Part shown: piece after piece, positions 2,444 to 12,261 of the stretch
Numbering within the stretch: the first letter of the stretch is position 1
How the letters are laid out: every line of letters begins with the position of its first letter
Assembly (NCBI RefSeq): GCF_000377945.1
Contig: NZ_KB898946.1
Location: 1 to 42,696 of the forward strand
Source: Thioalkalivibrio sulfidiphilus
Lineage (GTDB): Bacteria > Pseudomonadota > Gammaproteobacteria > Ectothiorhodospirales > Ectothiorhodospiraceae
Direction: 5' to 3'
DNA length: 42,696 nucleotides
Notes under the pieces: model-generated
What the model saw: the letters and a program-made list of their open reading frames with translations, nothing else
The model's database searches: none
Told to the model about the DNA's origin: nothing
Translations under genes and position numbers: made by a program

Positions 2444-3007
2444 ATGGGCAACCGACTGACCCGCATCTATACCCGCACCGGCGACGATGGCAGTACCGGG
2501 CTGGCCACGGGGCTGCGCGTGCCCAAGGACTCGGCGCGCATCGAGGTGATGGGCGACGTGGACGAACTCAACAGCCTGCTCGGCGTCATGCTGGCCGAGC
2601 CGGTGCCGGTTCAGCTTTCGGAGCTGTTGCTGGAGGTCCAGCATGACCTGTTCGACCTGGGTGGCGAACTGGCCATGCCGGGGGAGTCCCTGATGCAGGC
2701 TGCCCGGGTGGCGTGGCTGGAGACGCGCCTGGATCAGATCAACGAGACCCTGCCCCCGCTCAAGGAATTCATCCTCCCGGGTGGCGGCCGGGCCGCCTCG
2801 CTCTGCCAGCTGGCCCGGGCCGTGTGCCGCCGCGCGGAACGTCACCTGGTGCACCTGTCGCGGGATGAGCCCGTCACCGAGGTGTCCCGGCAGTACTTGA
2901 ACCGGCTCTCCGACCTGCTGTTCGTCATGGCCCGGGTGCTGGCCCGGGAGGTGGGGGAGGGGGAGGTCTTCTGGAAAAGCAGAAGGATGAAGGACGCGGA
3001 GAAGTGA
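2444..3007 (+). CDS. PduO-type ATP:cob(I)alamin adenosyltransferase
   Basis: This 187-residue enzyme transfers the 5'-deoxyadenosyl group of ATP to cob(I)alamin, making coenzyme B12. The family N-terminus is clear: TRTGDDGSTGLATG at about residues 10-23, then GDVDELNSLLG. The C-terminal half holds the signature PGGGRAASLCQLARAVCRRAER and then YLNRLSDLLFVMAR. The ATG follows a GAGG ribosome site. The gene lies 25 nt after btuB, so both are probably under the same riboswitch and link uptake to activation. The last codons (GAG AAG TGA) coincide with the first unit of a 7-bp repeat array that continues past the stop. Confidence 0.93.
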   Translation: MGNRLTRIYTRTGDDGSTGLATGLRVPKDSARIEVMGDVDELNSLLGVMLAEPVPVQLSELLLEVQHDLFDLGGELAMPGESLMQAARVAWLETRLDQINETLPPLKEFILPGGGRAASLCQLARAVCRRAERHLVHLSRDEPVTEVSRQYLNRLSDLLFVMARVLAREVGEGEVFWKSRRMKDAEK

Positions 3008-3090
3008 GAAGGGCGAATTGGGAAGTAGGGGCTGTGGGCAGAGTCCTCTGCGTGCTTTGCGTCTCTGCGCCCTCCGCGTGTTCAGCGATG
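2999..3090. repeat. Heptamer array followed by an octamer array
   Basis: Degenerate 7-bp units GAAGTGA, GAAGGGC, GAATTGG and GAAGTAG run from 3001 to 3028, and the first contains the pduO stop codon. From about 3045 to 3090 the sequence changes to 8-bp-periodic units, best read on the minus strand as ACGCGGAG, GCGCAGAG, ACGCAAAG, ACGCAGAG. No facing arm is evident here, unlike most other copies in the window. The block fills most of the gap before the ROK kinase gene. Confidence 0.75.
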
Positions 3091-3106
3091 CCGGGTTGAC
3101 GATCCC

Positions 3107-4027
3107 ATGTACCGCATCGGCGTCGACCTGGGGGGCACCAAGACCGAGATCATCGTGCTGGACGGGCAGGGGCGCGAACACCTGCGCCGCCGGGTGCCCA
3201 CGCCGCGGGACGACTATGAGACAACCCTCTCCACCATCGTCTCCATGGTGCGCGAGGCGGAGACCGATCTGGGGGCCACGGCGACCGTGGGCATCGGTAC
3301 GCCCGGCGCCGTCTCGGCGCGCACCGGGCGCATGAAGAACTGCAATTCCGTGTGGCTCAACGGGCAACCCCTGCGGGAGGACCTGGAGGCGCGCCTGGAG
3401 CGGCCGGTGCGCCTCGCCAACGATGCCAACTGCCTGGCCCTGTCCGAGGCCACCGACGGGGCGGGCGCGGGGGCCGGGACGGTGTTCGCCGTGATCCTGG
3501 GCACGGGCACCGGGGCGGGGATCGTGGTCAATGGCCGGGTGCTGACCGGTGCCAATGCCATCGCCGGGGAATGGGGCCACAACCCCTTGCCCTGGCCCCG
3601 GGACGAGGAGCGCCCGGGCCCGGGCTGCTACTGCGGGCGGCAGGGCTGCCTGGAGACCTGGCTGTCGGGGCCGGGCATCGCGGCGGATCATCTGCGCATG
3701 ACCGGCGAGGCACTGGACACCCGTGCCATCGCGGCGCGGGCCGCCGGGGGAGACCGGGATTGCCTGGCAACCCTGGCCCGACACCAGGATCGCCTGGCCC
3801 GGGGCCTGGCCCACGTGGTCAATATCCTCGATCCAGACGTGATCGTGCTGGCAGGCGGTGTCTCCGGGCTGCCCGGGCTGATCCCGGGGGTGATGGCCCG
3901 CTGGGGTGACTTTGTCTTTTCAGATCAGGTGGATACGCGTCTTGAGCTCGCGCGGCATGGGGATTCCAGCGGGGTGCGGGGCGCGGCCTGGCTGTGGGCT
4001 ATGGATTTCCGGGAGGGTGCAGGCTGA
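3107..4027 (+). CDS. ROK-family sugar kinase (fructokinase / N-acetylglucosamine kinase type)
   Basis: This 306-residue cytoplasmic kinase phosphorylates a hexose or amino sugar with ATP. The N-terminal phosphate loop DLGGTKT is at residues 7-13. The catalytic Asp lies in LANDANC (D106). A second glycine-rich loop, LGTGTGAG, is near 131-138. The ROK zinc site is formed by H158 (EWGH) and the cysteines of GCYCGRQGC (C174, C176, C181). Length and motif order fit the Mak/NagK branch, but the substrate cannot be fixed from sequence. No strong ribosome site precedes the ATG, and the upstream gap is repeat sequence. The context gives no sugar pathway. Confidence 0.85.
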   Translation: MYRIGVDLGGTKTEIIVLDGQGREHLRRRVPTPRDDYETTLSTIVSMVREAETDLGATATVGIGTPGAVSARTGRMKNCNSVWLNGQPLREDLEARLERPVRLANDANCLALSEATDGAGAGAGTVFAVILGTGTGAGIVVNGRVLTGANAIAGEWGHNPLPWPRDEERPGPGCYCGRQGCLETWLSGPGIAADHLRMTGEALDTRAIAARAAGGDRDCLATLARHQDRLARGLAHVVNILDPDVIVLAGGVSGLPGLIPGVMARWGDFVFSDQVDTRLELARHGDSSGVRGAAWLWAMDFREGAG

Positions 4028-4050: not shown

Positions 4051-4081
4051 TTCAAAAAGTCAGACGCTTGACTATAGTCAA
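4051..4081 (+). promoter_or_regulatory. Candidate sigma70 promoter with overlapping palindromic operator
   Basis: A -35-like TTCAAA (4051-4056) and a -10-like TATAGT (4074-4079) are separated by 17 bp. The -10 sits inside a perfect 14-bp palindrome, TTGACTATAGTCAA (4068-4081). A palindrome over the -10, upstream of an operon encoding a TetR-family repressor, is the usual layout for autorepression. Binding by that TetR protein is inferred. Confidence 0.55.
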
Positions 4082-4099
4082 TGAATCCCTCGAAAGAGA

Positions 4100-4116
4100 G
4101 GGGGCTGAAAGCCCCC
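4100..4116 (+). promoter_or_regulatory. Leader hairpin upstream of dsrE2
   Basis: GGGGGCT and AGCCCCC form a 7-bp stem with a GAA loop in the untranslated leader, about 38 nt before the dsrE2 start. It is not followed by a T tract, so it is not a standard terminator. It might stabilise the mRNA or act in regulation, but nothing in the sequence decides this. Confidence 0.35.
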
Positions 4117-4153
4117 CGGATCAGGGGGCAATCCACCCTAGCAGGAGTGATTC

Positions 4154-4621
4154 ATGTCTGAGAAAAAGCTGGCCATTATCGCAACGAAGGGCTCTCTGGA
4201 TTGGGGCTATCCTCCCTTCATTCTGGCCTCCACCGCTGCTGCCCTGGGTTACCAGGTGCAGATCTTCTTCACCTTCTATGGTCTGCAGCTGCTCAAGAAG
4301 AAGCTGGACCTGAAGGTCACCTCCCTGGGCAACCCGGGCATGCCGATGCCCATGCCCATGCCGGTCCTGCTGCAGGCCCTGCCGGGTATGCAGAGCATGA
4401 TGACCATGATGATGAAGAAGAAGATGGCCTCCAAGGGCGTTGCCAGCCTGGAAGATCTGCGTGAGCTGTGCAGCGAGGCGGAAGTGAAGATGATCGCCTG
4501 CCAGATGACCGTGGACCTGTTCGAGATGGATCCTTCCCAGTTCATCGACGGTGTTGAATACGCCGGCGCTGCCGCGTTCTTCGAGTTTGCCGGCGAATCC
4601 GATATCTGCCTGTTCATGTAA
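4154..4621 (+). CDS. DsrE2-like sulfur-carrier family protein
   Basis: This 155-residue protein belongs to the DsrE/DsrF superfamily and most resembles the DsrE2 branch, which works with rhodanese and TusA in sulfur transfer in sulfur oxidisers. It begins with a Rossmann-like strand (KLAIIATKGSLDWGYPPFIL). A Met/Pro-rich segment, NPGMPMPMPMPVLLQALPGM (60-79), is followed by a Met-rich basic stretch. C116, in IACQMTVDLF, is at the position of the cysteine conserved in DsrE2 proteins; C106 and C152 are also present. No rhodanese or tusA gene is adjacent, so a role in sulfur trafficking is inferred from family only. A good AGGAG ribosome site precedes the ATG, and the stop overlaps the next start (TAATG). 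Confidence 0.85.
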   Translation: MSEKKLAIIATKGSLDWGYPPFILASTAAALGYQVQIFFTFYGLQLLKKKLDLKVTSLGNPGMPMPMPMPVLLQALPGMQSMMTMMMKKKMASKGVASLEDLRELCSEAEVKMIACQMTVDLFEMDPSQFIDGVEYAGAAAFFEFAGESDICLFM

Positions 4622-5238
4622 TGGCAGAACAGGCGGACAAGCGTCAGCCTGTGGAGGCGGGCGGCCGCGGCGCGGAGAACCGGGAACGGATCGTCGCCGC
4701 GGCCGACCGCCTTTTTTATGAAAAAGGCTTCCAGGCCACCTCCTTCAGCGACATCGCCGATGCCGCCGGGGTCCCCAAGGGCAACTTCTACTACTACTTC
4801 AAGACCAAGGATGCCCTGCTCGAAGGGGTCATCGACTGGCGCCGCCAGTGTCTGAAGAAGCTCCTGAACAGCCTCAACGTCCAGCACGATGATCCCCGAG
4901 AACGTCTCATGACCCTGCTCACGGGGCTGTGCGCCGGCGAGGACGACATCGTGCGCTACGGCTGTCCCATGGGCACCCTCAGCGCGGAACTGTGCAAGAC
5001 CGGCCACGAGATGAAGGAGCAGGCCCAGTCGCTGCTGGAGACCATCCGCGAATGGATCGCCACCCAGCTGCAGGCCATGGGCCGGGATGATGCCCCGGAA
5101 TTCGCCCGCGAGATCCTGACCCGCAGCCAGGGCGTGACCCTGCTGGCCCACGCCTACGGCGATCACCACCTGCTGGTGGAAGAGATGGCCCGGGTGCGTC
5201 ACTGGGTGAGCGCGGTGCTCGACGGGCAACCCCATTGA
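4621..5238 (+). CDS. TetR/AcrR-family transcriptional regulator
   Basis: This 205-residue protein has a typical N-terminal TetR helix-turn-helix at about residues 20-68, with the landmarks AAADRLFYEKGFQATSF, DIADAAGVPKGNFYYYF and KTKDALL. The C-terminal ligand domain includes the common motif GCPMGTLSAEL. The start overlaps the dsrE2 stop by 1 nt, so the two are translationally coupled. It probably controls its own operon through the palindrome at 4068-4081. It carries several cysteines, including one in GLCAGEDD and one in YGCPMG. A sulfur or redox ligand is possible given the neighbour, but the sequence does not prove it. Confidence 0.9.
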   Translation: MAEQADKRQPVEAGGRGAENRERIVAAADRLFYEKGFQATSFSDIADAAGVPKGNFYYYFKTKDALLEGVIDWRRQCLKKLLNSLNVQHDDPRERLMTLLTGLCAGEDDIVRYGCPMGTLSAELCKTGHEMKEQAQSLLETIREWIATQLQAMGRDDAPEFAREILTRSQGVTLLAHAYGDHHLLVEEMARVRHWVSAVLDGQPH

Positions 5239-5696
5239 GCGAACCCCGTTCCAGGCACACTGATTCCCCCTACCTCGCCGCCTTCCAGGGCGGTTTTTCC
5301 GGCGTGCTGCGCTGGCATCAGCTGGATGCCCTGTGGGAACGTCTGCGTGCGCGGGCCGGCGAGGGCTGGTATGTCTACGCCGTGGGCGAGCCACCGCCCG
5401 AGTCACCGGCCGATGCCGAGTCCCTGCTGCGTTTCATCGGGGAAGTGGACGCCCTGCTGCGCAGGGAGCACGACGAGGACTACTGCGGCGTGGTCTACGC
5501 CGACGACTTGCAGCAGCCCCGGTTCGTGAAGATCTACGACCCCAATCACCTGGGCAGCAGTTGCGGCAGCAGTGGCCTGCGCGTGCTGCCCGGCTGGACC
5601 CTGTCCCTGATCCCGCCCGTGGACCTGCCCGAGGCCCTGCCCCAGACGGGGAGTCGCAGGCGCTGGTGGCAGAAGCTGTTTGGAAGTGGGAAGTGA
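5235..5696 (+). CDS. Hypothetical protein, third gene of the dsrE2-tetR operon
   Basis: I do not recognise this 153-residue soluble protein. It starts with TTG at 5235, which overlaps the tetR stop (TTGA), so the three genes form one translationally coupled operon. It is rich in aromatic and acidic residues (LRWHQLDALWERLRAR, GWYVYAVGEPPPE, RREHDEDYCGVVYADD). There is a small Cys/Gly/Ser stretch, SSCGSSGL, and a basic C-terminus (RRRWWQKLFGSGK) that could touch a membrane or nucleic acid. The last codons (Gly-Ser-Gly-Lys-stop) are made of 7-bp repeat units, so the original C-terminus may have been replaced. Confidence 0.75.
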   Translation: MSEPRSRHTDSPYLAAFQGGFSGVLRWHQLDALWERLRARAGEGWYVYAVGEPPPESPADAESLLRFIGEVDALLRREHDEDYCGVVYADDLQQPRFVKIYDPNHLGSSCGSSGLRVLPGWTLSLIPPVDLPEALPQTGSRRRWWQKLFGSGK

Positions 5697-5716: not shown

Positions 5717-5789
5717 GGCCTCGTTACCCAGTGAGTCCTGACTCATCCGGTTTGAACGCTGATCTCCGCGATTGCCCGAGATGAATTGC

Positions 5790-5940
5790 CTTGCCGCAGA
5801 GACGCGGAGGCGCAGAGAAAAACACTCAATCGACAGGATTTACAGGATGATTGGAGAGGACCGTGACCTCTGCTTTAATCCTGTGAATCATGTAAATCCT
5901 GTCAACGGACTTCTCAGCGCCTCCGCGTCTCTGCGGCAAG
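5790..5940. repeat. Nested inverted octamer repeat (class with GACAGGATTTACA inner arm)
   Basis: Outer arms of 30 bp (5790-5819 and 5911-5940) are near-perfect complements and are built from 8-bp units (CCGCAGAG, ACGCGGAG, GCGCAGAG). Inside lies a second, A+T-richer inverted pair starting with GACAGGATTTACA at 5832 and ending with GTAAATCCTGTC at 5903. A closely related copy is at 13651-13815. The element fills the gap before the DUF1841 gene and would form a long stem in RNA or single-stranded DNA. Confidence 0.85.
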
Positions 5941-5990
5941 CGGTTTCATGGCCGGGTATACTGTCCCGCCCTCAGTACGCACGACACGCC

Positions 5991-8160: not shown

Positions 8161-8847
8161 TCAGACAGCCGCTTCCACAGGCACCGCGGCGTGGGCCGGT
8201 TGGCGCTTCTGCAGGCGGGCGTCGATGATGTTCTTCAGCGCGATCAGCAGACCCAGGGCGATGAAGGCGCCGGGGGGGAGCAGGGCCAGCAGGAAGCCCC
8301 GGTATTCCTCGAACAGTGTCAGGCCGAAGCCCCGGGCGGCCTCGCCGAACATCAGGTGCGCGTCCGCCAGCAGGGTTCCGTGACCCACCGCCTCGCGCAG
8401 GGCCCCCAGGGCCACCAGCACGCAGGTGAAGCCCAGGCCCATGGCCAGGCCGTCGGCCAGGGCCTTGGGGATGGGTTGCTTGGAGGCGAAGGCCTCGGCG
8501 CGGCCGATGATGGCGCAGTTGGTGACGATCAGGGGGATGAAGATGCCCAGGATCAGGTACAGCTCGTGGAAGAAGGCGTTCATGGCCAGCTCGATGGCGG
8601 TCACCACCGAGGCGATGATCAGCACGAACACCGGGATGCGGATCTCCGGGCGCACCCAGTGACGGATCAGGGACACGGTGACGTTGGAGGCCACCAGGGT
8701 GAGGGTGGTGGCCAGGCCCAGCCCCAGGGCGTTGACCACCGTGCCGGAGATGGCCAGCAGCGGACACAGTCCCAGCAGCTGTACCAGCCCCGGGTTGTTG
8801 TGCCAGAAGCCGTTGGCGTTGATCTCGCGGTAGCTGATGTCACTCAC
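8161..8847 (-). CDS. rnfE: Rnf/Rsx electron transport complex subunit E
   Basis: This 228-residue integral membrane subunit belongs to the Rnf complex, which couples ferredoxin and NAD(H) redox chemistry to ion movement and in some gammaproteobacteria resets SoxR. It shows the RnfA/E fold with about six membrane helices and the paired motifs [21 protein letters not shown] and [21 protein letters not shown], whose Cys residues are thought to hold an Fe-S cluster between RnfA and RnfE. The start is GTG at 8847. It overlaps the rnfG stop by 8 nt, so translation is coupled. It is the last gene of the rnfABCDGE cluster. Confidence 0.95.
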
Positions 8848-9541
8848 GGGGGCTTGCCTCCATTAGTGCTTCTGTCTGGACTGCTCCAGTCTGGGCATCT
8901 TCAGCCGGGGCTGCGTCGACGGGCTGCGCGTCGGGCAGGGGCGCGAACACGATGTCACGGTGCGACTCGAAGTATATCAGCGCGTCGCGCACCGCCGTCA
9001 CCACGGCCCGTGGGGTAATGGTGGCGCCGGTGAACTGGTCGAACACGCCGCCGTCCCGGCGCACCGCCCAGCGGTCGTAGAAGGGATCCAGCAGGCTGCG
9101 TCCGTCGAAGGACAGGATCCAGTCGGAGCGGCCCACCTCGATCTCGTCGCCCAGGCCCGGGGTCTCCCGGTGGCTCACCACCCGCACCCCGTCCAGGGTG
9201 CCGTCCACGCGGATGCCCACCAGCAGGCGGATGGGTCCGCTGTAGCCCCCGGGTGCCACCACGGTAAACACCGCCGCCACCGGCTCCCCGCCAAGGCGTG
9301 CCCGGTAGGCCCGCAGATCACGTCCCCCGAGCAGTTCGTGGGAGAGCAGGACGCTGTCGGCGAGGATGTCGTTGTCGTAGGCCTCGTGGCTGAGGATGTC
9401 GTGCAGGCTGCTAAGCGTGGCCGCCTCGATGTTGGCGGCGATGCGCTCGGCCGTGCCCTGGTACACGAAGGCCACCAGGGCCGTGCCCACCACGCCGAAC
9501 AGGGCCAGCAGCACGCCGGAGATGATGATGTTGCGCATCAT
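8840..9541 (-). CDS. rnfG: Rnf complex subunit G (flavoprotein)
   Basis: This 233-residue periplasm-facing subunit is anchored by one N-terminal membrane helix (about residues 4-27) and carries covalent FMN. The flavinylation motif is TGATIT, with acceptor T174, in [15 protein letters not shown]. Before it come the conserved [12 protein letters not shown] and [14 protein letters not shown]. The ATG at 9541 overlaps the rnfD stop (ATGA), and a second ATG follows at once. The C-terminal tail is acidic and Ala-rich. Order and overlap place it firmly in the rnf operon. Confidence 0.94.
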
Positions 9542-10596
9542 GGCGTGCCACCGTTCTCGCGCCGCGGCGGCTTCTGGCCGAACACCCTTGGCCGGGTGTA
9601 GTGGTCGATGGTGGGCGCGGCCATGTTCATGAGCAGCACGGCGAAGGCCACCGCGTCCGGGTAGTTGCCCCAGGTGCGGATCACGTAGATGAGCACGCCG
9701 ATGCCGAGGCCGTAGAGGATGCGCCCCATCGGCGTGGTGCTGGCGGACACCGGGTCCGTGGCGATGAAGAAGGCACCCAGGATGGCGGCGCCGCTGAACA
9801 CGTGGAAGGCGGGCGAGGCGTAGGCGTCCGGGTCGACGATCCAGAACAGCCCTGCGGTAACGGCCAGCCCGCCCAGCACCGCCACCGGGATGTGCCAGGT
9901 GATCACGCGCATGAACAGCAGGGCGATGCCGCCGAGCAGGAACCAGTTGCCGATCCATTCCCAGCCCTTGCCGGAGAAATCGCCGAACAGCGGGTTGTCC
10001 CGGATCTCCGTGATGGTCAGGTTCCTGCCCAACTCGGTCTTCATGAGATCGAGCGGCGTGGCGGTGGTGATGGCGTCCCAGGTGAGACCGGGCGGCAGCT
10101 GGCCCAGGAAGATGGCGGCCAGGGCCTGCATGGGGCCGAAGCTCACTTCGGACAGGGGCATGGGCGGCAGCCACAGGGTCATCTCCCGGGGGAAGGACAG
10201 CAGCACCACCACGTAGCCCACCATCGCCGGGTTGAAGGGGTTGTAGCCCAGGCCGCCGTAGAGGTGCTTGGCCACCACGATGGCAAAGCCGACCCCCACC
10301 AGGGTCACCCACCAGGGCGTGAGCGGCGGCAGGGCCAGGGCGAACAGCCAGCCGGTGACCACCGCGCTGTAGTCGGAGAGGGTCGGGATCACCGGCCGCC
10401 GGCGCAGCACCAGCATGAGCGCCTCGAGGCCCACGGCCAGCACCACCGCCAGGGCCACGTTGATCAGCACGCCCCAGCCGAAGTACCAGGCCATGGCGAG
10501 CGTGCCCGGCACCAGGGCGTAGAGCACGCGGCGCATCACCTGGCCCACGTTGTGGGCAGGGGTCATGTGGGGGGAGGTTTGGGTGCGGAAGTGCAT
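9538..10596 (-). CDS. rnfD: Rnf complex subunit D (membrane flavoprotein)
   Basis: This 352-residue polytopic membrane subunit carries covalently bound FMN. It has about nine hydrophobic segments. The family motif AKHLYGGLGYNPFNPAMVGYV is at about residues 109-129. The flavinylation site is ITTATPLD with T180, matching the Ser/Thr-x-ATPLD motif of RnfD. I keep the start at 10596 because MHFRTQTSP aligns with the known RnfD N-terminus (F-R-x4-S-P), although no ribosome site is visible. The 14 nt before the ATG, CCACTGCCTTTAAA, are the tail of a 7-bp repeat array that lies between rnfC and rnfD. Confidence 0.95.
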   Translation of the reverse strand: MHFRTQTSPHMTPAHNVGQVMRRVLYALVPGTLAMAWYFGWGVLINVALAVVLAVGLEALMLVLRRRPVIPTLSDYSAVVTGWLFALALPPLTPWWVTLVGVGFAIVVAKHLYGGLGYNPFNPAMVGYVVVLLSFPREMTLWLPPMPLSEVSFGPMQALAAIFLGQLPPGLTWDAITTATPLDLMKTELGRNLTITEIRDNPLFGDFSGKGWEWIGNWFLLGGIALLFMRVITWHIPVAVLGGLAVTAGLFWIVDPDAYASPAFHVFSGAAILGAFFIATDPVSASTTPMGRILYGLGIGVLIYVIRTWGNYPDAVAFAVLLMNMAAPTIDHYTRPRVFGQKPPRRENGGTP

Positions 10597-10604
10597 TTAA
10601 AGGC

Positions 10605-10635
10605 AGTGGCTAGTGGCAAGTCTCAAGTGGCAAGG
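10605..10635. repeat. Heptamer array between rnfC and rnfD
   Basis: Units AGTGGCT, AGTGGCA, AGTCTCA and AGTGGCA (plus strand) run from 10605 to 10632. On the rnf coding strand the array ends in GCCTTTAA directly before the rnfD ATG. No opposite arm is present, but a short GACAGC-ATC-GCTGTC hairpin lies between the array and the rnfC stop. The array sits inside the rnf transcription unit. Confidence 0.8.
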
Positions 10636-10662
10636 AAAGTCGGTGACAGCATCGCTGTCCAA

Positions 10663-12261
10663 TCAGCCCGACGGTTCCTTATCTGCCTTCTCTGCGCTCA
10701 TCTGTTCGGCTTCCTGGGCGGCCTTGCGGGCCTTGGCTCGTTCCAGGGCGGCCTGGATGGCGGCCTTCTTGGGGTCGTCGGCGGTGTCGTCCTGCTTGGC
10801 GGCCAGGGCGGCCTTCTTGCGGGCCAGGCGCTCGGCCTTCTCCCGTTCTTCCTGTTCCAGGCGCGCCTGGCGGAACTCGTGGCGCTCACGGGCGATGTCC
10901 GCCTTCCTGCGCTCCCGTTCCTGGGCCCAGATCTCGTTCTTGGCGAAGCGGTAGTACTGTACCAGAGGAATGTTGCTGGGACAGACGTAGGCGCAACAGC
11001 CGCACTCGATGCAGTCGAACAGGCTGTAGTCCTGGGCCTTGTCGAAGTCCTTGGCCCGGGCGAACCAGTACAGCTGCTGGGGCAGCAGCTGCGCCGGGCA
11101 GACCTCGGCGCACTGGCCGCAGCGGATGCAGGGCATCACCGGCCCCGGCGGGGCCACGTCCTCGTGGCTGGCGGCCAGGATGCAGTTGGTGCCCTTGACC
11201 ACGGGGATCGCGTCGCTCTGCAGGGCGAAGCCCATCATGGGCCCGCCCATGATCAGCCGGCTCACCTCATCGGTGTAGCCCTCGGCGGCGGCCACCAGGT
11301 CGGCGATGGGGGTGCCGATCAGCACCTCCAGGTTGCGGGGGTGCTGCACGCCTTTGCCGGTGACGGTGATGATGCGTGAGATCAGTGGCTCGCCGTGGGC
11401 CACCGCCCGGTAGATGGCGTAGGCGGTGCCCACGTTCTGGCACACTATGCCGATGTCCGCCGGCAGTCCCTGGCTGGGCACCTCCCGGCCTGTGAGCACC
11501 TGGATCAGCTGGCGCTCGCCACCGGCGGGATACAGGCTGGGGATGGGCACGATGCGGATGCCGTGGGCCTCATCCCCGCCCAGGGCATCGCGCATGGCGG
11601 CGATGGCGCCGCTCATGTGGTCCTCGATACCGATCAGGCAGCAGCGCGGCTTGAGGGCCTGCATGAGGATGCGGATGCCCTCGATCACGCCCCGGGCATG
11701 GGTGCGCATGAGGGAATCGTCGCAGGTGATGTAGGGCTCGCACTCGGCGCCGTTGATGACCAGGCAGTCCAGCGTCTGGCCCGGGCGCGGCGTGATCTTC
11801 ACGGCGGAGGGGAAGGCGGCCCCGCCCAGGCCCACGATGCCTGCCTCACGGATGCGGTTGCGCAGGCTCACCGGGTCGGCGTCGAGATAGTCCTCGATGG
11901 GTGGCAGGCGGCTCTCGCCCCAGGATTCACGGCCATCCGGTTCGATCACCACGCAGGGGGCGGACAGGCCGGAAGGGTGGGGCACCGGGTGATCGGCGAT
12001 CTCCACCACGCGCCCGGAGGTGGGGGCATGGACCGCTGCGCCCACGTAGGTGTCGCAGCGTCCGATCAGCTGACCCTTGTTCACCCGATCCCCCGGCGCC
12101 ACGCAGGCCTCGGCGGACTCGCCGATGTGCTGGCGCAGGGGCACGATCAGGCGCGCCGGGATGCGCATGGGCAGCACCGGATCCCGGGTACTCTCCTCCT
12201 TGTGGCGGGGCAGATGCAACCCGCCGTGGAAGCGATGCAGCTTGTGGGCCTGTTCGGTCAT
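10663..12261 (-). CDS. rnfC: Rnf complex subunit C (Fe-S / flavin electron-input subunit)
   Basis: This 532-residue soluble subunit resembles the Nqo1/NuoF fold and exchanges electrons with NAD(H). Seen in order: an N-terminal HxFxGGLHLPRHKE region, a barrel-sandwich-like segment (VGAAVHAPTSGRVVEI), a GLGGAAFPSAVK nucleotide/flavin motif, and NGAECEPYI. Two ferredoxin motifs follow, CIRCGQCAEVCP and CIECGCCAYVCP. Beyond these is a long charged Ala/Glu/Lys/Arg-rich tail, probably coiled, as in gammaproteobacterial RnfC, where it links to RnfB. It is separated from rnfB by a 170-bp gap holding an octamer hairpin. Confidence 0.96.
   Translation of the reverse strand: MTEQAHKLHRFHGGLHLPRHKEESTRDPVLPMRIPARLIVPLRQHIGESAEACVAPGDRVNKGQLIGRCDTYVGAAVHAPTSGRVVEIADHPVPHPSGLSAPCVVIEPDGRESWGESRLPPIEDYLDADPVSLRNRIREAGIVGLGGAAFPSAVKITPRPGQTLDCLVINGAECEPYITCDDSLMRTHARGVIEGIRILMQALKPRCCLIGIEDHMSGAIAAMRDALGGDEAHGIRIVPIPSLYPAGGERQLIQVLTGREVPSQGLPADIGIVCQNVGTAYAIYRAVAHGEPLISRIITVTGKGVQHPRNLEVLIGTPIADLVAAAEGYTDEVSRLIMGGPMMGFALQSDAIPVVKGTNCILAASHEDVAPPGPVMPCIRCGQCAEVCPAQLLPQQLYWFARAKDFDKAQDYSLFDCIECGCCAYVCPSNIPLVQYYRFAKNEIWAQERERRKADIARERHEFRQARLEQEEREKAERLARKKAALAAKQDDTADDPKKAAIQAALERAKARKAAQEAEQMSAEKADKEPSG

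Follow-up and report, generated by a model that had tools for sequence, protein, structure and literature searches.

Gene Organization of the Locus

The window, i.e., the whole stretch of 42,696 nucleotides analyzed here, belongs to a 3.05-Mb genome of 69 contigs. On contig C26 we found three genes encoded on one strand: dsrE2, a gene for a TetR-family regulator and a gene for an uncharacterized conserved protein, hereafter called the third gene (Table 1). As had been noted in a preliminary description of this DNA, the genes overlap, dsrE2 and tetR by 1 nt (TAATG), and tetR and the third gene by 4 nt (TTGA). A ROK kinase gene ends at position 4027 and is separated from dsrE2 by 126 bases; promoter-like hexamers and two overlapping palindromic elements lie in this interval.

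Table 1. Features of the dsrE2-tetR locus and its upstream region (window coordinates).
Feature	Position	Strand	Basis
pduO-type cobalamin adenosyltransferase and ROK kinase genes, outside the operon	2444..4027	+	PF01923, PF00480
-35-like hexamer TTCAAA	4051..4056	+	consensus scan
Operator candidate AGTCAGACGCTTGACTAT	4058..4075	+	inverted repeat AGTCA-N6-TGACT at 4058-4073, matrix score 19.5
TTGACTATAGTCAA palindrome	4068..4081	.	3' half of operator candidate plus -10
-10-like hexamer TATAGT	4073..4078	+	consensus scan
dsrE2 (sulfur carrier protein DsrE2, 155 aa)	4154..4621	+	NF047629 293 bits, PF13686 178 bits; 29-row alignment
tetR (NemR-like TetR-family repressor, putative, 205 aa)	4621..5238	+	PF00440; alignment to E. 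coli NemR
Third gene (uncharacterized conserved protein, 153 aa)	5235..5696	+	TTG start inside TTGA; 56-row alignment

DsrE2 and the Sulfur Genes of the Genome

The product of the first gene is recognized as DsrE2 (NF047629, 293.2 bits against a cut-off of 210) and is the sole DsrE2 match in the genome at E <= 0.001. We detected neither a rhodanese nor a TusA gene in the neighborhood of the trio, in agreement with the initial view of a lone DsrE2-type protein; the genome has two TusA-domain matches, on contigs C5 (84.8 bits) and C24 (42.5 bits, inside a larger frame). The C5 tusA adjoins an iron-sulfur gene with 4Fe-4S domains, which we take to be HdrC-like, and dsrA is also found on C5. Because dsrA and tusA are on C5, with a second TusA-domain match on C24, the organism is probably a Dsr-type sulfur oxidizer, with its only DsrE2 placed in what would be a separately regulated operon.

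According to published work on DsrE2, DsrE2A is defined by two strictly conserved cysteines, and dsrE2 genes occur in rhd-tusA-dsrE2 or tusA-dsrE2 arrangements (PMC4175335). The window operon shares with such clusters the DsrE2 family and the two cysteines, Cys106 and Cys116, kept in 29/29 aligned rows, yet it lacks rhd and tusA and has a regulator of its own and the uncharacterized third gene in their place. In our set of 71 dsrE2 loci, which includes some places fetched twice, tusA was present within 400 nt in 18, none of them tetR-linked or third-linked. The same work speaks of a process that "possibly involves" DsrE2 and states that the archaeal DsrE2B showed no reaction with any sulfur compound tried (PMC4175335).

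A Protein Family Accompanying DsrE2

The third protein has no match in Pfam or NCBIfam, and its designation as unrecognized thus stands. Searches of genome contigs located its family 251 times; 80 of these loci were fetched, and 56 aligned members share 24 invariant positions, including W27, W34, H79, C84, C110, W144, and W145. The structural model of the protein is of good confidence (pLDDT 84.7, pTM 0.82). The best hits of the fold searches with Foldseek (E 1.2) and VIA-align (Z 3.4, a glycine N-acyltransferase) are too weak to name a fold, and a profile search of PDB sequences with the family gave a best E of 0.96. When the 56 members were scanned against Pfam, the best hit was NA-iREase3 (E 0.0025; 12/56 members at E <= 1), which we did not accept as a membership.

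In an even sample of 369 genomes of the class, the third gene was present in 103, dsrE2 in 148, dsrA in 119 (at E < 1e-30 and with partial genes included; 112 pass the family cut-off) and a TetR of this type in 62. The third gene co-occurs with dsrE2 in 100 of its 103 genomes, the exceptions being one genome that is 100% complete (G110) and two partial ones; by family, both genes are present in at least one genome for 51 of the 53 families with the third gene, these co-occurrence counts being irrespective of shared ancestry. As an alternative genomic partner dsrA was rejected, its association being weaker (86/103), and all 17 third-positive genomes without dsrA have dsrE2. The third family is therefore likely a DsrE2-associated component, as judged from these distributions. 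In the sample this unnamed family is hardly ever seen in the absence of dsrE2, which makes it a concrete addition to the candidate components of sulfur oxidation. A phylum-level search of 398 genomes found it in 46; 42 of the 46 lie outside the class, and their members are divergent (E 5e-34 to 1e-10).

Recurrence of the dsrE2-tetR-Third Gene Module

We identified the module in 10 genomes from four gammaproteobacterial families, i.e., in 7 of the 369 class genomes and in three congeners. Within the genus it is carried by four of five genomes, and the fifth, which is 82% complete, has neither dsrE2 nor tetR. In one of the seven (G344) dsrE2 is cut by the contig end, and in a further genome (G380) a dsrE2-tetR pair runs up to the contig end. 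The trio proteins of a near relative, Thioalkalivibrio denitrificans (L001), are 78–91% identical to those of the window. Outside the genus DsrE2 retains 79–89% identity and TetR only 39–49%; given the latter values, the recurrence does not reflect mere close kinship. Conservation of the trio in sulfur oxidizers had been named as a check, and the trio is conserved well beyond close relatives.

The trio is nevertheless a minority arrangement. In the class sample, 100 genomes have dsrE2 as well as the third gene, and 7 of these have the trio; in most of the 100 the two genes lie apart. Partial versions of the module exist as well: in five cases tetR and the third gene lack an adjacent dsrE2, and in three genomes (loci L184–L186) dsrE2 adjoins the third gene with no tetR. 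The 80 fetched third-gene loci, many with short flanks, contain three trios and two tetR-third pairs. A search of plasmid proteins returned TetR relatives only, all below 60% identity, and a literature search for DsrE2 or DsrE together with TetR gave no such link in titles or abstract beginnings. As for other neighbors, genes for a DUF2063/NGO1945_C protein, an MbnB/TglH/ChrH-type RiPP-modification enzyme and DoxX are found near the tetR-third pair of locus L073 (4475-6803), and a DUF2063 gene is convergent to the trio in L112 (173-952).

Promoter Region and Operator Candidate

The perfect palindrome previously seen to cover the -10 hexamer, TTGACTATAGTCAA, does exist and overlaps TATAGT. It has a single genomic copy even when one mismatch is allowed; perfect 14-bp palindromes number 12 in the window and arise in 0.6% of shuffles of the 126-bp intergenic stretch. 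However, two congeners keep 12 bp of it and other families none, and the proposal that it serves as a conserved operator was rejected. The -35 place reads TTGAAA in two congeners and TTGACA in family f127.

What is conserved instead is the inverted repeat AGTCAKACGNNTGWCT, positioned between -35 and -10, which overlaps the left half of the palindrome and reaches further upstream. It is present at 10/10 readable dsrE2-tetR promoters, although weak in L021; in L194 and G344 the promoters lie beyond the contig end. In L195 and L155 the repeat is found between TTGACA and TAGGTT, 17 bases apart. Four of the five tetR-third loci have it within 200 bases of tetR; in L198, the remaining one, it stands before an NAD-epimerase gene that opens the run.

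Visual inspection of some of these same promoters first suggested the motif, a selection bias limited by leave-one-out scoring, two later loci and 53 controls. With leave-one-family-out matrices, 12 of 13 sites reached a shuffle p <= 0.02 (L021 failed, p 0.11), and 12 of 13 were the best site of the whole locus. The sites used to build the full matrix score 16.2–27.4, and two loci scored after the matrix had been fixed gave 19.7 (L198) and 18.8 (L187, an operon with a DsrE2 paralogue). Upstream of dsrE2 genes without tetR, none of 53 distinct regions carried the operator, the maximum score being 6.3; a first control set of 32 such loci had the same maximum. Locus L201 has a 15.3 site before tetR, and its dsrE2 paralogue, which is not adjacent to tetR, only 3.4. 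The matrix scan found no site in L188. Consensus scoring of 21 further tetR homologues gave a fair match before tetR in L116 alone (13/16 letters).

In the window genome there is one exact site, and with up to two mismatches on both strands we counted 15 matches versus 23 for the reversed pattern; there is no second site beyond background. Scanning of the 80 third-gene loci (812 kb) revealed 10 with a site of at least 14, four of them tetR-linked operons. The six others score 14.1–16.8 and lie more than 700 bases from the third gene, three being the same site in related genomes, which corresponds to roughly one chance site per 135 kb. In L092 and L093, one site is located near the 3' end of dsrE2. 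L187 (2553-4874, genome G378) encodes on one strand a DsrE2 paralogue, an ORF that reads by eye like an NAD-epimerase, and tetR, and is preceded by TTGACA followed by two tandem operator sites.

The Regulator as a Relative of NemR

The window TetR matches PF00440 (TetR_N) with 65.6 bits, and its C-terminal part matches an LmrA/YxaF-like domain just at the cut-off. BLASTP aligned it with E. coli NemR at 2e-13 (30% over 122 columns), with C104, C115, and C125 placed on NemR C98, C106, and C116. The preliminary description had pointed to several cysteines, and four are indeed present (C77, C104, C115, and C125), but only C115, the equivalent of NemR Cys106, is conserved, in 41/41 aligned rows with that of the window included. 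C77 and C104 are confined to the genus, and the C125 column has one other row; these essentially genus-specific residues were rejected as sensors.

Further likenesses to the E. coli nemRA-gloA system include the GC-X4-LSAE-[LV]C motif around the sensor cysteine, the position of the regulator inside its own operon and AGAC half-sites just before the operon (TAGACCGACTGGTCTA before the nemR start). The half-sites of NemR are spaced by 4 rather than 6 bases. For NemR Lys175, the sulfenamide partner of Cys106, no clear counterpart can be named in the window TetR: the column has no Lys, but the alignment slipped at Cys106 and is unreliable there. In the window operon, the places of nemA (Old Yellow Enzyme) or gloA are taken by dsrE2 and the third gene; with neither nemA nor gloA as neighbor, we refer to the regulator as NemR-like and not as NemR.

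Nine TetR homologues are encoded beside Old Yellow Enzyme-type genes (PF00724, Oxidored_FMN, 9/9). GAC-N4-GTC repeats, e.g., TAGGACNNNNGTCCTA or TAAGACNNNNGTCTTA, occur in seven of these nine upstream regions, and six of the seven are promoter-like, several directly after TTGACA; the exceptions are L120, with the repeat inside a dsrE2 remnant, L125, with a broken repeat only, and L131, with none. In the tree, the sulfur-linked TetRs of the trios are not united in a single supported clade. Cys115 is not restricted to the sulfur-linked proteins, which share it with Old Yellow Enzyme-linked regulators and E. coli NemR. The remnant in L120 (170-295) shows 50% identity to DsrE2 and lies just ahead of the Old Yellow Enzyme-tetR pair; at the matching place in L131 a TusA-like C-terminus can be read by eye. 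This TetR subfamily may be tied more widely to sulfur-trafficking genes.

According to a review, E. coli NemR senses electrophiles and bleach, hypochlorite via Cys106 and electrophiles via Cys21/Cys116 (PMC7464077). AltR, a NemR homologue from the thiosulfinate-tolerance cluster of Pantoea ananatis, senses thiol-reactive organosulfur compounds (thiosulfinates) via one conserved cysteine, which is essential for this sensing (PMC13178969). Like AltR, an autorepressor with an inverted-repeat operator overlapping the -10, the window TetR is a predicted autorepressor with one conserved cysteine and a candidate operator of this kind; in contrast, the AltR operator, CAATCTAC-N6-GTAGATTG, and its target genes are unlike those of the window (PMC13178969). 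The sulfane-sulfur repressors SoxR and sHdrR of Hyphomicrobium resemble the window regulator, a predicted repressor, in being directed at sulfur-oxidation genes in a sulfur oxidizer (PMC10451225, PMC12423496). Yet they are ArsR-family proteins, with two crucial cysteines in SoxR (PMC10451225), while the window protein belongs to the TetR family and has one conserved cysteine and not the ArsR fold with a reactive cysteine pair characteristic of SoxR and SqrR.

Proposed Regulation and Alternatives

On balance, we lean toward an autoregulated operon, in which a NemR-type repressor would be released via Cys115 by a thiol-reactive molecule, inducing DsrE2 and the third protein. Judging from conservation, TetR would bind AGTCA-N6-TGACT (4058-4073), which lies between the two hexamers of its own promoter, -35 and -10, and would thereby keep all three genes from being transcribed. 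If NemR and AltR are a guide, modification of Cys115 would free the promoter and allow synthesis of DsrE2 and the third protein; in a sulfur oxidizer the most likely signal would be excess reactive sulfur or another electrophile. Speculatively, DsrE2 made in this way would act as a carrier or buffer of sulfane sulfur in the cytoplasm, and the two-cysteine third protein could be its partner or acceptor. As anatomy, the predicted regulatory switch is well supported. Given the precedents of NemR and AltR, thiol-based sensing by the window TetR is likely and a sulfur signal possible.

The main competitor accepts autorepression through the conserved repeat and differs in the signal, which would be a small non-covalent ligand (e.g., fatty acyl, aromatic or quinone-like) and not cysteine chemistry. 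In its favor, TetR proteins for the most part bind ligands, the GCP motif recurs in the closest solved structure, 3dpj, whose entry names no signal, and the L198 operon begins with an NAD-epimerase gene, with L140 and L187 similar by eye. Set against this is Cys115, invariant in the alignment and matching the sensor Cys106 of E. coli NemR, and we regard a non-covalent ligand as a serious but rather unlikely alternative. It is improbable that TTGACTATAGTCAA itself is the operator, either for the window TetR or for a regulator of the FNR/CRP type (TTGAC-N4-GTCAA is, we presume, FNR-box-like): its perfection over 14 bp, rarity in intergenic shuffles, overlap with the -10, uniqueness in the genome and 12-bp core retained in two congeners speak for such a role, but in the families outside the genus it is missing and the adjoining repeat persists. 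Least probable is a chance or hitch-hiking gene order, with tetR inserted between dsrE2 and the third gene and regulating neither. The three genomes with dsrE2 and the third gene adjacent without tetR, and the many with the two apart, would fit this, whereas the overlapping genes, the recurrence in four families and an operator confined to tetR-linked loci speak against it.

Returning to the cysteine-based switch, the preliminary interpretation of a sulfur-responsive operon in which DsrE2 or a persulfide is sensed survives in part: the trio is conserved, an operator-like element occurs at the readable promoters and the regulator is of a thiol-switch TetR lineage, but neither TTGACTATAGTCAA as operator nor the additional cysteines could be retained. 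The example of AltR, with its single cysteine sensing thiol-reactive organosulfur compounds, makes the persulfide or sulfur-sensing idea plausible. More doubtful, though conceivable, is a broader scenario in which a NemR-lineage repressor was repurposed in sulfur oxidizers as a one-cysteine sensor of reactive-sulfur overload controlling a sulfur-buffering pair, DsrE2 and a previously undescribed two-cysteine family, the latter serving as its partner or sulfur acceptor across Gammaproteobacteria. An operon with its own sensor would offer a direct handle, as the signal releasing the repressor should hint at the substrate of DsrE2.

Flanking Regions

The pduO-ROK gene order beside the trio is repeated in two loci from other families (L182 and L195) and in the congeners L191 and L192. 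Farther upstream, a cobalamin riboswitch (270-507; Rfam RF00174, 100.8 bits) is located near the start of an ORF ending at 2418, which precedes the PduO-type adenosyltransferase gene at 2444-3007; we assume this ORF to be TonB-receptor-like. Between the third gene and a DUF1841 gene, an imperfect inverted repeat (5781-5949) with 39-nt arms, 87% complementary, encloses a second inverted repeat and has the appearance of a REP-like or small mobile element. The minus-strand ORFs at 8161-12261 presumably form an Rnf-like electron-transport cluster.
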